Origin: Gemmatimonadota bacterium | GTDB taxonomy: Bacteria > Latescibacterota > UBA2968 | Assembly: GCA_009838845.1 (NCBI GenBank) | Contig: VXRD01000026.1 | Coordinates: 1-64,000, forward strand | DNA length: 64,000 nucleotides | Reading direction: 5' to 3' | In this document: positions 11,400 through 16,490 of the stretch, one piece after another | Position numbering within the stretch: the stretch's first letter is position 1 | Layout: every line of letters starts with the position of its first letter | Position numbers and translations under genes: made by a program | The notes under the pieces: generated by a model | What the model saw: the letters and a program-made list of their open reading frames with translations, nothing else | Told to the model about the DNA's origin: nothing | Databases searched by the model: none

Positions 11400-12206
11400 C
11401 TATTTTTTGCCATTTTCCTCTTTCAATACAGAACGGATGGCTTCCATGTCAATATCTGGATACGTCTTTTGAATGGCTGCAAATATTTCTCTATGACCTT
11501 CTTCTCGGCCTTCTTCTCTGGCTTGTTTCATGATGTATTGTGCAAAAGATGATTCGCGCATAATCGCATCCATAAGACCCTCCTGGGATAAAATACGACT
11601 AATCGTGGCTGGCGCATACGCTAACCCACTCAATATCGTCAACCCACCCCAAATGTCAACCTTTATTGAGTCTTCCAACGGCAAAGCTCTCGCAGCATCA
11701 ATACACGACTTTAACCACTCTTCAGAATCCATTTCATCAGGACGTTTCATCAATGGCGCAAATGGAAGCAAGCCTGCATGTCCTTCATTGAGAATGTGCT
11801 GTCCTTCAATCTCGATCAGTCTGATCACACTGTATTGGAAGATAAGATGGTGACCAGGCAGGTTTTGGATATAGTGTCCCGGATCGTTCTTTCCCGCATT
11901 GGGACGCAAGTAGATCACGCTGGAATAGATCGGCAAGTGATGCGTCTCAATGGCTCTGACGGTATAGCCAGCCATTCGGATGGGCATTGTCGGATCGGTA
12001 GTGGTTTGAAATTCGTGATGTACCAATGCCTCTTCGCCTGCAATCTGAACTTTGATGAGGCTGTCCATGTGGTGTGTTTGTGTTGTTGGTTGTTCTGTGT
12101 CGAGGATGTCGAGAAATTGGACGTCGTCTCGTTGGAGAGAGAGTTGGATGAAGTCTTGAGGGTAGGTTTGGATGAAGTGTTTTGAGATGGTGTCGTATTG
12201 GGGCAT
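11400..12206 (-). CDS. Rpn-type PD-(D/E)XK nuclease family protein
   Basis: Predicted 268-aa protein of the Rpn/YhgA-like family (recombination-promoting nuclease, often labelled putative transposase). The nuclease core is visible as Asp in HHMDSLIKVQI followed by HHEFQ (E-x-Q) about 20 residues later. The C-terminus has the charged AREEGREEGHREI helix and a hydrophobic-repeat tail common in these proteins. Family members cut DNA and are often strain-variable. No recognition site or inverted ends mark it as a transposon. An AAAGG site precedes ATG 12206. It converges on the nucleotidyltransferase gene across two hairpins. Confidence 0.8.
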   Translation of the reverse strand: MPQYDTISKHFIQTYPQDFIQLSLQRDDVQFLDILDTEQPTTQTHHMDSLIKVQIAGEEALVHHEFQTTTDPTMPIRMAGYTVRAIETHHLPIYSSVIYLRPNAGKNDPGHYIQNLPGHHLIFQYSVIRLIEIEGQHILNEGHAGLLPFAPLMKRPDEMDSEEWLKSCIDAARALPLEDSIKVDIWGGLTILSGLAYAPATISRILSQEGLMDAIMRESSFAQYIMKQAREEGREEGHREIFAAIQKTYPDIDMEAIRSVLKEENGKK

Positions 12207-12679: not shown

Positions 12680-15676
12680 ATGCCAGAACTCGATCCCATT
12701 ACATTAAACGCACGCCAGCGCGAAGCCGTTATTGCGCCAATAGGTCCCGTTCTCGTGCTGGCGGGGCCAGGCACGGGGAAGACGCGGGTGCTGACTGAAC
12801 GCATTGCGTATCTGGTCTCGCGGCGCGGCGTCCATCCGGAAAATATCCTGGCGCTCACATTTACAAATAAGGCGGCGGCAGAACTGCAAATCCGCTTGTC
12901 GCGCACGTTGAGCAAAGAAACTGCGGAGGTTATTACCGCAGGTACATTTCACAGGTTTTGTATCTCAATTCTGCGGGAGCATCGAGAAACGGTTGGGTTG
13001 CCACCGCATTTTGGCATTGCCGATGAAGACCTTCAGCGCACGCTGATCTATCGCGCATTTCCTCGCCTGAGTCCCAATGAAAGCAATTTGAATAATGTGA
13101 TGCAAAATGTGAATCGCCTGAAGTGGCAGCGGCGATACAAGGCGCATGTTCCGATGAAAAAAGGGGATGCGGCATTGCTCGATCAGTACGAAGCCGAACT
13201 GAAGAAAAATCGATTGATCGATTTTGACGATCTCATATTTCTCGCGCATGATTTGCTGCATTCGCATCGCCAGATTCTGGCGGATTATCGCGCGCAATTT
13301 CAACACATCCTCGTCGATGAGTTTCAAGATACCGATCCCGTGCAATACGCCCTCGTTTATTTGTTGGGCGCGGCTCACCGGAGTGTTTTTGTGGTTGCAG
13401 ATGACGAGCAGTCCATTTACGGGTGGCGACATGCCAGGCCAGAACATATCGAACAATTTCGGGATGATTTTCTCAAAGGTCGTTCGCCCATTTTTTTGGA
13501 GGAAAACTACCGATCATCCGCAGAAATTTTGCGGCTGGCGCGCGTGTTTATCGCCAATAATGACGTGTTGTTTGAACGCAGCATCCATACCCAGAGATCG
13601 GGACGCCGCGTGCGGGGGATGGCTTTTGATACGTTTGAGGAAGAAGGCCAGTTTATTGCGGGCGATATCTGGGATCGCATCCGGGAAACGCCCGATCTGG
13701 TTCACCGGGATATTGCGGTGCTTTATCCCCAACACGCAATAGGCAGCGAGCTCGAGCGCATTTTTATGCGCGCCAATGTTCCCTGCCTGATGGCTCATCG
13801 CAGGGGCTTGTTCGACCAGCCCGTGATCCGTCGTGCCCTGTCCGTGTTGCGCTATGCTCTCGATGGCGCGAATGACGCGAGTCTCGAGTTGTTTTTGCGG
13901 CGCGAACTCGAAGCGGTGGATCCCAAATTATACCCGGCGGTGCGGGGATTTCAGAAACAAAAAAATATTGGGAGTTTCAAACAGGCGGCTTTTCTGTATC
14001 CGCGAACGGTTTCGGAAGAAGAGGGCGTGGATGTGGAACGCGCGCTGGGTCTGGCAGGTGTGGTACACAATGCCGTGCAAAGAGGCGCGGTCGCATCTTT
14101 GCCCCATCTGGTGGATGATATTCTGGACCAATTGAATACATCGGAGTTGCCATCTCTCAAAAATCATCTCGATGACATTGTAGATCCACTCGAACTTTCG
14201 GTTCTCAATATCGCTCTGAATCGCGTGTTGCCACTCTGGCGCAGGGGCGGCACCTTGTATGTGGCGTGTCGAGACGAGGTGCTGCGGCATATGCTCACAA
14301 CTCTGATCCGGGATGCACTGGCGCGGCCGGGTCTCATCATACGAGAGGCTGTGCCCGGCAGCCGATTGGATGTTTTATCCGATACTCTAATTTTATCCTT
14401 TGACGAAGATCCGCCGAAAACCCCCGAACACTTTTTACATTTGGGAGGCATGGCGTGTGGTGCAATGCTCGCTGCTCTCAAATTGTGTCAGGCGATCCGC
14501 TGCGCAGATTTGCCAGCGTATATGCCGGAATACACTGCATTTGCGTTGGAAACGGCGGATGACGATCCCGAGCAAGCACAGATCACAGCTCTGGGTGCTG
14601 TGCGCGTGCGAGATGGGCGTGCTGTCGATACATTTTATTCGCCCGTACGCCTGCGAGAGGACAAAGGCACGGCTCCTACATTTCAGGAAATTTATCTCGC
14701 GTTTCAGGCGTTTGTCGGTATCGATATTCTGGTCGCACACAATGGCTATGCGTTCGATTTTCAGGTTTTGCACCGCGAAGCCCGCCGCAATGGCAGGTCT
14801 CGCATGCCCAATCCGACGGTTGATATATTGCCTATGGCGCGAAGCTATGGCGCGACTGCTACACGCGATTTGCGCCCTCTTTGCGAGCGGTATGATATTG
14901 CGTCAGATCCAAACGATCCGCCGGCACGCGCGCGTGCATTGGCCTTGTATCGCGTGTTTGAAGCTATGAAGAAAGAGCGCGCCTCTCGCTACCGGCGTAT
15001 GACGCATGAACGCCTTTTGGATCACGTTGCTCTGGGCTTGCTTTTTCGCACGCGCGATGGGGTAAGGGATACGGAATTTTCCCGCGAAGAACACGTGCAT
15101 TTCAATCTGGGGGCGCAGCGTCTTTTGGGGCCGGCCAATTTGTGCATTCGCAATCTCGTGCAGCACTACCCTCGATTGGATGCCGACCGGCTGCGGGGAC
15201 AGACGCGGATGTTGCTCGGCGAAGATCCCCGTCCCGATGTGCTCGCGTTGCACGCTCCCGATCAGATTCAGCGCTTTCGAGACCTTTGCGAACGCCACGG
15301 TGCTGCTGCGCCATCTCTTCAGGAGGGCATTCGCAATTTGCTCGATTTTGCCGATCTCTACAAAGTTGAATTGGATACCCAAGACCGCGATGCTGTGCAT
15401 TTGCTGACGTTGCACGCGGCAAAGGGGCTTGAGTTTCGAGAGGTCTATATTTGCGGTCTCGAAGATCGCATTTTGCCCAATGCCCGCGCCCTGAACAGCG
15501 CGGATTTAGCCGAACAACGCAGGTTGTTGTACGTGGGGATCACCCGCGCAATGGATCGCCTCACGCTTTCCTGTGTGCAGCATCGTCCGGGCCGAAATAT
15601 GGCGCCTTCTCGATTCTGGGATGAACTCGGATTAGAACGCGATGATCGCGGTGTGGATGCCGCTCCAACGGCGTAA
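12680..15676 (+). CDS. UvrD/PcrA-like superfamily 1 helicase with inserted degenerate DnaQ-like exonuclease domain
   Basis: Predicted 998-aa DNA helicase. SF1A motifs are in order: AGPGTGKT (motif I, about 28-35), LALTFTNKAA (Ia), VDEFQDTD (II, from 212), VADDEQSIYGWRHA (III), LEENYRSS (IV), LLTLHAAKGLEF (V, about 908) and LLYVGITRAMDRL (VI). Between motifs IV and V, residues about 618-765 resemble a DEDDh exonuclease (FALETADDDPEQAQITALGA; VAHNGYAFDFQVL; a C-terminal helix). The first catalytic Asp is Ala622, and the HxxxxD of motif III appears as PPARARAL, so only Glu624 and Asp693 remain. The helicase looks active and the exonuclease looks dead. ATG 12680 gives the canonical UvrD N-terminus. 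lpxH follows after 22 bp. Confidence 0.88.
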   Translation: MPELDPITLNARQREAVIAPIGPVLVLAGPGTGKTRVLTERIAYLVSRRGVHPENILALTFTNKAAAELQIRLSRTLSKETAEVITAGTFHRFCISILREHRETVGLPPHFGIADEDLQRTLIYRAFPRLSPNESNLNNVMQNVNRLKWQRRYKAHVPMKKGDAALLDQYEAELKKNRLIDFDDLIFLAHDLLHSHRQILADYRAQFQHILVDEFQDTDPVQYALVYLLGAAHRSVFVVADDEQSIYGWRHARPEHIEQFRDDFLKGRSPIFLEENYRSSAEILRLARVFIANNDVLFERSIHTQRSGRRVRGMAFDTFEEEGQFIAGDIWDRIRETPDLVHRDIAVLYPQHAIGSELERIFMRANVPCLMAHRRGLFDQPVIRRALSVLRYALDGANDASLELFLRRELEAVDPKLYPAVRGFQKQKNIGSFKQAAFLYPRTVSEEEGVDVERALGLAGVVHNAVQRGAVASLPHLVDDILDQLNTSELPSLKNHLDDIVDPLELSVLNIALNRVLPLWRRGGTLYVACRDEVLRHMLTTLIRDALARPGLIIREAVPGSRLDVLSDTLILSFDEDPPKTPEHFLHLGGMACGAMLAALKLCQAIRCADLPAYMPEYTAFALETADDDPEQAQITALGAVRVRDGRAVDTFYSPVRLREDKGTAPTFQEIYLAFQAFVGIDILVAHNGYAFDFQVLHREARRNGRSRMPNPTVDILPMARSYGATATRDLRPLCERYDIASDPNDPPARARALALYRVFEAMKKERASRYRRMTHERLLDHVALGLLFRTRDGVRDTEFSREEHVHFNLGAQRLLGPANLCIRNLVQHYPRLDADRLRGQTRMLLGEDPRPDVLALHAPDQIQRFRDLCERHGAAAPSLQEGIRNLLDFADLYKVELDTQDRDAVHLLTLHAAKGLEFREVYICGLEDRILPNARALNSADLAEQRRLLYVGITRAMDRLTLSCVQHRPGRNMAPSRFWDELGLERDDRGVDAAPTA

Positions 15677-15698
15677 AATCTCTTTCTCTACTCTGCCG

Positions 15699-16490
15699 AT
15701 GAAAAAAGACAAAGTTTATTTTATTTCTGACGCGCATATAGGCGGGGGCAAATATATTCGTCCACCGCGCGTTCGGGAAGATGCGTTGATCGATTTTCTA
15801 CGCGCTATTCGCAAAGATGCCAAATGTTTGTATATTGTGGGGGATTTGTTCGATTTTTGGTTTGAATATCGTTCTGTCGTTCCCGCACACGGAGCGCGTG
15901 TGATCTTTGAGCTCTACCATCTCGTTCAAAGTGGAACGCGCGTCATTTATCTGCCGGGCAATCACGATAGCTGGCTGGGGGGCTATTTATCAGAGCAGGT
16001 GGGGGCGGAGCTTCCCGGGCCTTTTTGCGACATCTCACACCAGAATTGCCGTCTGTATGTGACACACGGCGATATTTTTCAGCAAAATTGGAAATTTGAA
16101 TTGCGGCGGCGCATTTTGAAGCATCCACTGTGTATCGCCTTGTTTCGGTGGTTACATCCAGATATCGGCGCTTATCTGGCGCGTATTGTGTCGCGGTCTT
16201 CGGATCTCGATATCAGAGAAGGAACGCGAAAGAAAAAGAAAACATATTTGCCTTTGTATTTTATTAAAAGCGCGGCAGAGAAATTTGCCGAGGGATTTGA
16301 TTTTGTGATTTGTGGACATTATCACGCGCTGAGTGTTGAGCCGATGGACGGCGGGACACTTGTTGTGTTGGGCGATTGGCTGAGATACGATGCTTATGCT
16401 GTGCTCGAAAATGGCGAGATTGCATTAAAGCACTGGCATACAGCACCGGAAAAGCCGCTGCTGACCGATGATACAGGAGATCTCAAATGA
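15699..16490 (+). CDS. lpxH: UDP-2,3-diacylglucosamine diphosphatase (LpxH-like)
   Basis: Predicted 263-aa calcineurin-like phosphoesterase. Motifs are DAHIGG (residue 10 on), GDLFDFWFE, GNHDSW, THGD and GHYHAL, the full metal-binding set of the family. The FWFEY after GDLFD is characteristic of LpxH, which releases UMP from UDP-2,3-diacylglucosamine to make lipid X at the inner membrane during lipid A synthesis. This implies an LPS-bearing outer membrane. ATG 15699 is preferred over the ATG of the open frame at 15642, which lies inside the helicase gene. The last four bases overlap the glpK start (ATGA). Confidence 0.82.
   Translation: MKKDKVYFISDAHIGGGKYIRPPRVREDALIDFLRAIRKDAKCLYIVGDLFDFWFEYRSVVPAHGARVIFELYHLVQSGTRVIYLPGNHDSWLGGYLSEQVGAELPGPFCDISHQNCRLYVTHGDIFQQNWKFELRRRILKHPLCIALFRWLHPDIGAYLARIVSRSSDLDIREGTRKKKKTYLPLYFIKSAAEKFAEGFDFVICGHYHALSVEPMDGGTLVVLGDWLRYDAYAVLENGEIALKHWHTAPEKPLLTDDTGDLK

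Follow-up and report, generated by a model that had tools for sequence, protein, structure and literature searches.

A UvrD-type helicase with a broken DnaQ-type exonuclease domain in its 2B region in one genus of Latescibacterota

We analyzed a 64,000-nucleotide stretch of contig VXRD01000026.1 (assembly GCA_009838845.1, Latescibacterota), hereafter the window, and in it a gene encoding a UvrD-like helicase of superfamily 1A (SF1A). By profile matches, alignment and predicted structure, this 998-residue protein contains a domain of the DnaQ/RNase_T type within its 2B region, and the active site of that domain is broken. The finding is carried by homology to intact relatives, the lost residues, a single loss on the tree, a reading frame that has stayed open, and purifying selection after the loss. 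We consider it probable that the enzyme began as an active helicase-exonuclease and turned into a helicase sparing 3' ends, in which the former nuclease survives as a part of 2B with a structural or regulatory role.

The helicase motor and the broken exonuclease site

The gene and its parts, all on the forward strand, are as follows.

12680..15676, +: UvrD-type SF1A helicase with an inserted DEDDh-type domain, predicted to be catalytically dead; 998 amino acids plus stop, one reading frame
12755..12784, +: helicase motif I, intact (VLAGPGTGKT, residues 26-35); same in 10/10 genus members
13310..13336, +: helicase motif II, intact (LVDEFQDTD, residues 211-219); same in 10/10
13385..13432, +: helicase motif III region, intact (VFVVADDEQSIYGWRH, residues 236-251); same in 7/10, Tyr as last residue in 3/10
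13496..13531, +: helicase motif IV, intact (LEENYRSSAEIL, residues 273-284); same in 10/10
13862..15364, +: enlarged 2B region holding the insertion (about residues 395-895), from the alignment with L057 and the predicted model
14510..14980, +: DnaQ/RNase_T-type domain (residues 611-767), from Pfam and hhalign; model block means of 79-97
14543..14551, +: former exonuclease motif I; Asp replaced by Ala622, Glu624 kept; Ala in 10/10 genus members, Asp in 70/70 other distinct fused homologues
14648..14674, +: site of a 15-residue deletion (conserved THGIT loop of homologues), from the alignment with intact relatives and model comparison with L054
14735..14761, +: former exonuclease motif II (AHNGYAFDF); Asp693 kept in 9/10, Ala in L053
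14918..14935, +: former exonuclease motif III; His replaced by Pro747 and Asp by Arg752; lost in 10/10 genus members, His and Asp in 70/70 others
15392..15436, +: helicase motif V, intact (AVHLLTLHAAKGLEF, residues 905-919); same in 10/10
15512..15562, +: helicase motif VI, intact (EQRRLLYVGITRAMDRL, residues 945-961); same in 8/10, one side change each in the other two

SF1A motifs I to VI are present together with the Pfam matches UvrD-helicase (residues 9-264) and UvrD_C (best stretch, residues 862-966), and the protein thus qualifies as a UvrD-like SF1A helicase. The start at 12680 (MPELDPITLN) agrees with the genus members in the alignment. Motif Ia is the same in all ten, and the first-pass annotation was right that the motor is intact: the variation found lies in the last residue of motif III and in single residues of motif VI. 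When the full-length AlphaFold2 model was searched with Foldseek and VIA-align, the best 50 matches of each were SF1-type motors, with UvrD, Rep and PcrA ranking highest, ahead of AddAB, AdnAB and RecB. These matches confirm the motor and say nothing of the exonuclease domain.

The same genome also encodes L057, an ordinary UvrD/PcrA that has the PcrA/UvrD tudor domain, and the 998-residue helicase is therefore not its sole UvrD-type motor. L057 aligned in long blocks with residues 1-409 and from residue 861 onward. Between these blocks lie about 97 residues in L057 versus about 451 in the 998-residue helicase, which makes the 2B region about 350 residues larger and places the extra material inside it. 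Part of this material is a small alpha/beta module before the exonuclease domain (14147-14494 of the window, residues ~490-605), which is predicted with good confidence, had no Pfam match in the scan of the 998-residue protein, and is shorter in L056, a homologue from a second phylum.

The assignment of the inserted domain agreed with the first-pass annotation, which had placed a DnaQ-like exonuclease in the 2B region. Pfam RNase_T matched residues 623-742 (E 3.1e-9, 38.0 bits versus a cut-off of 24), and hhalign aligned the ten dead domains with four DnaQ-type domains of other proteins at a probability of 98.2 (E 3.4e-14), in an unchanged register that stops before motif III. The PolC exonuclease domain 2p1j was matched at E 6.3e-29 with an alignment including intact members and at E 0.0018 with the 998-residue protein alone. 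The AlphaFold2 model of the window protein had a mean predicted local distance difference test score (pLDDT) of 86.4, and its block means across the exonuclease region were 79-97; for L054 the mean was 88.2. Within residues 617-774 the order of strands and helices is consistent with an RNase H-like exonuclease core. Over the full length, the window protein is 70% identical to L054, 61% to L038 and 45% to L055; its identity to L056 is 35%. The intact relatives L055, L038 and L054 have FD(I/V)ETT, AHNGYxFDF and HRALDDA in the matching columns.

In DnaQ-type enzymes, acidic residues hold two metal ions and a histidine serves as the general base. The catalytic D-E-D-H-D positions read A-E-D-P-R in the window protein, which is not an intact DEDDh site. 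The residue reading of the first-pass annotation (Ala622, Glu624 and Asp693, with the motif III His and Asp gone) was borne out in every position, the motif III columns now holding Pro747 and Arg752; its description of the site missed the 15-residue deletion at the conserved THGIT loop. The L054 model has two short helices at this loop (668-674 and 678-681) without a counterpart in the model of the window protein. The corresponding loop of E. coli epsilon presumably packs on the 3' nucleotide. Taken from the residues lost, the 998-residue protein is strongly suggested to be inactive as a nuclease. An alternative alignment that restores the acidic residues, which the first-pass annotation had named as a possible refutation, was sought and none was found; it is improbable because the close intact homologues leave little freedom in the columns. 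We also rejected an assembly error, as ten separate assemblies have the same state.

Spread of the fusion and placing of the loss

Fusions of this kind were searched for with a profile combining the exonuclease domain and motor motifs V-VI. They were present in 13 of 64 Latescibacterota genomes, namely 10 of the 11 of the window's genus plus G011, G013 and G019, and, in a sample of 298 genomes from the second phylum (that of G124), in at least 67. The latter number is a lower bound, as at most six candidates were scored per genome and the phylum was sampled. It leaves out partial matches in G305, G380 and G437, counts L074 and L056 once because they are the same gene, and includes five frames shorter than about 810 amino acids (L075, L080, L084, L096, L103) that nevertheless reach all five catalytic positions. 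L040, which comprises the first 163 residues of the gene, was not counted; its contig, labelled Candidatus Poribacteria, ends there, and with 94% identity it perhaps belongs to a mislabelled or contaminated metagenome-assembled genome. The remaining member of the genus, G010 (95% complete, about 470 contigs), gave no fusion match, which is either a true absence or a gap. Two Bacteroidota plasmid records, L141 and L142 (Prevotella nigrescens and Chryseobacterium sp.), have the same arrangement with an intact D-E-D-H-D site and generic annotations. The architecture is therefore not rare, contrary to what the first-pass annotation had supposed, and judged by its catalytic motifs the intact fusion is present in at least three phyla. 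Among the titles and abstract openings examined, from open-access literature, we found no description of it, nor did passages of PMC3985635 and PMC3702460 give a UvrD-DnaQ fusion. With a DnaQ-type domain in 2B and orthologous helicase parts, the 998-residue protein belongs to this fusion lineage.

The first-pass annotation had proposed to date the loss with intact homologues, and these are plentiful. The catalytic positions were read in 80 genes. Nine sequences of the genus have A-E-D-P-R, and its deepest member, L053, has A-E-A-P-Q, with the motif II Asp lost as well; D-E-D-H-D is kept in all 70 distinct fused homologues outside the genus (three from Latescibacterota, 67 from the second phylum). 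A tree of 63 rows was calculated from helicase columns, excluding those of the exonuclease, by a short search without bootstrap; here, as in the distance ratios and conserved-column counts below, four of the ten dead sequences were used. The four dead rows form one clade (Shimodaira-Hasegawa-like approximate likelihood ratio test, 100) beside the intact L054 and within the Latescibacterota rows, and a single change of state follows. Read from this tree and the alignment, the ancestor of the window's genus lost the nuclease site, and within the genomes sampled no other genus shows the dead state. We considered and rejected the idea that genus members also have a second copy with an intact site, since each of the ten genomes has one place with exonuclease and motor parts among the matches listed.

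Evolution after the loss and the role of the dead domain

The ratio of nonsynonymous to synonymous substitution rates (omega) was calculated by the Nei-Gojobori method for the nine close genus members. For the dead domain (residues 611-767) omega was 0.094 (bootstrap 95% confidence interval, 0.057-0.144), and for the rest of the protein it was 0.073 (0.057-0.089), a ratio of 1.30 (0.74-2.14). By segment, omega was 0.072 for residues 1-380, 0.073 for 381-610, 0.093 for 768-902, and 0.040 for 903-985. None of the ten sequences has a gap relative to the window protein within residues 611-767, and the frames are open. Residues 680-723 do not vary at all among the nine close members, while L053 differs at several of these positions. 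As estimated from these substitutions, the dead domain is under purifying selection.

Deeper in the genus the domain has changed faster. The ratio of exonuclease to helicase distance was 1.81-2.03 for three genus members versus L053, whereas in the 129 intact pairs whose helicase distance is below 0.6 it was no higher than 1.37; none of the 1,711 intact pairs reached 1.5. The three intact Latescibacterota pairs had ratios of 0.67-0.74, genus members versus an intact Latescibacterota row 1.07-1.80, and the three close genus members among themselves 0.76, 1.02 and 1.10. Of 50 exonuclease columns conserved at 85% or more in the 59 intact rows, the four dead rows keep 26; one column is deleted, and the other 23 differ in one or more of these rows. 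A second count used 51 exonuclease columns conserved in the second-phylum rows, of which the intact Latescibacterota agree with 42-43, compared with 28 for the window protein and 31 for L053; for 194 helicase columns, the corresponding numbers are 116-131, 127 and 126. In our reading, the catalytic site was relaxed first and the fold was then retained.

Several points weigh against this reading or narrow it. Nei-Gojobori is a simple method and was applied to few close sequences. In comparison with L053, the point value of omega was higher for the exonuclease (0.120) than for the N-terminal motor (residues 1-380, 0.076), at a synonymous distance above 1. The distance ratio is not raised versus distant relatives (the median is 0.887 for 236 dead-intact pairs and 0.916 for the 1,711 intact ones), most of that distance having accumulated outside the genus. 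Both structural models were guided by alignments containing intact homologues. Purifying selection indicates that the domain matters and not what for, and it could act on folding alone. Finally, the unwinding polarity and the trimming of 3' tails by intact relatives are family knowledge.

The 2B domain of UvrD-family helicases is described as regulatory and autoinhibitory, with rotation, dimerization or partner binding switching helicase activity, in the available part of PMC13238157. The original protein would have had a DEDDh 3'-5' exonuclease set in this region of a UvrD-type SF1A motor, and the ancestor of the genus would have switched the nuclease off by losing Asp from motif I, both His and Asp from motif III, and the HGIT loop, leaving the motor intact. 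Motors of the UvrD family travel 3'-5' along the tracked strand, and the RecB nuclease meets the tail of its own strand behind the motor. An exonuclease on the same molecule would likewise meet the 3' tail behind the motor, and the ancestral enzyme may have trimmed the 3' tail of the tracked strand like a RecB-type motor with its nuclease. The present enzyme would unwind or translocate and leave 3' ends whole. The old nuclease domain would have been kept since it is built into 2B, where it may stabilize the region, set its swing and possibly dock a partner. For a domain in 2B that has lost its chemistry and kept its fold, the simplest explanation is that it belongs to the regulatory body. A more specific form of this proposal, in which the genus re-used the nuclease after a single inactivation as a dedicated control element of 2B, a lid or partner dock that sets the activity of a helicase sparing 3' ends, is possible, though we would not expect it.

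Precedents make retention for a non-enzymatic role plausible. RecC carries an inactivated nuclease-like domain kept for another role, going by the accessible text of PMC1185551, and the PHP domain of E. coli polymerase III (Pol III) is a degenerate nuclease domain with a conserved structure that affects the stability and activity of the enzyme, according to the accessible text of PMC3666897. RecC resembles the window protein in being part of a helicase-nuclease machine; it differs in that its domain is of the PD-(D/E)xK superfamily and in a separate subunit, whereas the DnaQ-type domain lies in 2B of an intact motor. None of the 11 Pfam matches of the window protein is to a PD-(D/E)xK family, and RNase_T stands in its place, which argues against a RecC-type protein. 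The Pol III case likewise involves a degenerate nuclease domain that was kept, and differs in its PHP fold and in being part of a polymerase.

In a rival reading the domain has become a DNA-binding module that still grips single-stranded DNA or a 3' end but no longer cuts, and would thereby anchor the helicase or protect the end; dead nucleases elsewhere bind nucleic acid (RecC, PMC1185551; fungal RNase II pseudonucleases, PMC8097288; both as far as the accessible text goes). Glu624 is kept in all ten genus members and AHNGYAFDF in nine, and the invariant stretch 680-723 would fit such a role. These residues may, however, be the core of the fold, L053 departs from several of them, and deletion of the HGIT loop together with replacement of motif III disrupts the old nucleotide pocket; we regard DNA binding as unlikely. 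The suggestion of the first-pass annotation that a dead exonuclease could bind DNA ends or a protein partner thus fares differently in its two halves: with the loop deleted, end binding in the old pocket appears less likely, and purifying selection appears to favor partner binding or a structural or regulatory role.

A domain that is no longer needed and drifts toward loss, held in place by its position in the middle of a needed protein, would account for the excess divergence of the exonuclease on the deep branches of the genus and for the changed or deleted conserved columns. Against it stand the upper limit of omega (0.144), far below 1, the gap-free alignment, and distances among the close members in which the exonuclease is not clearly faster than the rest. 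We rejected decay by drift on account of omega, and a decaying remnant has a small probability. It is very improbable that the protein is still a nuclease with a rearranged metal site. Glu624 remains, Asp693 is present in nine of ten members, and Asp743 and Asp746 lie near motif III; L053, however, has Ala in place of Asp693 and Asp746 and Glu at 743, so that the genus as a whole shares no substitute acidic residue or histidine near the site, and the HGIT loop is deleted.

Genomic setting, related systems and meaning

The neighboring genes encode a tetratricopeptide repeat (TPR)/lytic transglycosylase protein, a nucleotidyltransferase, an open reading frame (ORF) without assignment, a metallophosphoesterase, an FGGY kinase and a TPR protein, and give no clue to a pathway.

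15642..16490, +: downstream neighbor, metallophosphoesterase, LpxH-like by eye; its start is probably further in, near 15699

A like metallophosphoesterase gene follows the intact homologue in L013 and L015, which supports orthology. An ORF of 268 amino acids at 11400-12206 on the reverse strand of the window had no Pfam match at 1e-5; it bears a tentative resemblance to Rpn-type recombination nucleases. An Rfam scan of the 64-kb window gave no match at gathering thresholds.

The genome groups with Candidatus Latescibacterota, to go by six contigs carrying that name whose best segments are 92-96% identical. It encodes two proteins with an RNase_T domain, the 998-residue helicase and a DinG fusion (L001, 1477-3453). 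Both are helicase fusions, and hence no free-standing DnaQ/epsilon was found among these matches. Several other Latescibacterota have exonuclease-domain matches in frames of about 245-330 amino acids. The PHP domain of DnaE (L143) is ligand-complete by eye, which would fit PHP proofreading. The DinG-type fusion (L001, 1477-1986; L031 of G016) has Glu for the motif II Asp (HQGRFE) and is possibly another altered exonuclease. In the same genome, L059 (3652-8850, reverse strand, 1,733 amino acids) joins a DEAD/Helicase_C part to a UvrD part and has an N-terminus that is DEDD-like by eye, without a Pfam match; L058 (2354-5686, reverse strand, 1,111 amino acids) is of the UvrD type with an N-terminal part that is PHP-like by eye.

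The nearest relatives of the window protein are the intact UvrD-DEDDh fusions. They have the same order of parts, with the DnaQ-type domain in 2B between the motor halves, and are orthologous within Latescibacterota; outside the genus all 70 and the two Bacteroidota records keep the site that the genus has lost. Two fusion records are annotated "3'-5' exonuclease" or "ATP-dependent helicase", and we met no family name. UvrD, PcrA and Rep have the SF1A motifs in common with the window protein and are its best matches among solved structures; they differ in the size of 2B, and the NCBIfam equivalog cut-offs were not reached (pcrA 382.3 of 911.2, uvrD 347.5 of 1144.45, rep 362.1 of 951.45 bits). 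DinG with an N-terminal 3'-5' exonuclease (accessible parts of PMC12345164 and PMC12525004), of which this genome has one, also joins a DnaQ-type exonuclease to a helicase, but it is an SF2 helicase of 5'-3' polarity with a terminal, not inserted, exonuclease. In PADLOC, GajB models matched the motor part of the window protein; in the intact L054 and L056 the exonuclease part also matched a Cas-associated DEDDh model, and L054 also matched the candidate system PDC-S48. A Pfam scan of the six neighboring genes, to which PADLOC was not applied, gave no GajA-like match. We set aside a defence gene as unsupported, though not excluded, the PADLOC matches being on the motor (25 of 40 models listed).

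In the more specific form of the proposal, an intact SF1A motor would carry a pseudonuclease regulator throughout a genus. The two states form a natural separation-of-function pair, in which orthologous helicases of related genera either have or lack a working exonuclease site in 2B and the change is placed on one branch. Comparing them would show what a UvrD-type motor gains or loses when it is coupled to a 3'-5' exonuclease. It would also show how a nuclease that has died persists in a structural or regulatory capacity within 2B, which is believed to control this class of helicases.

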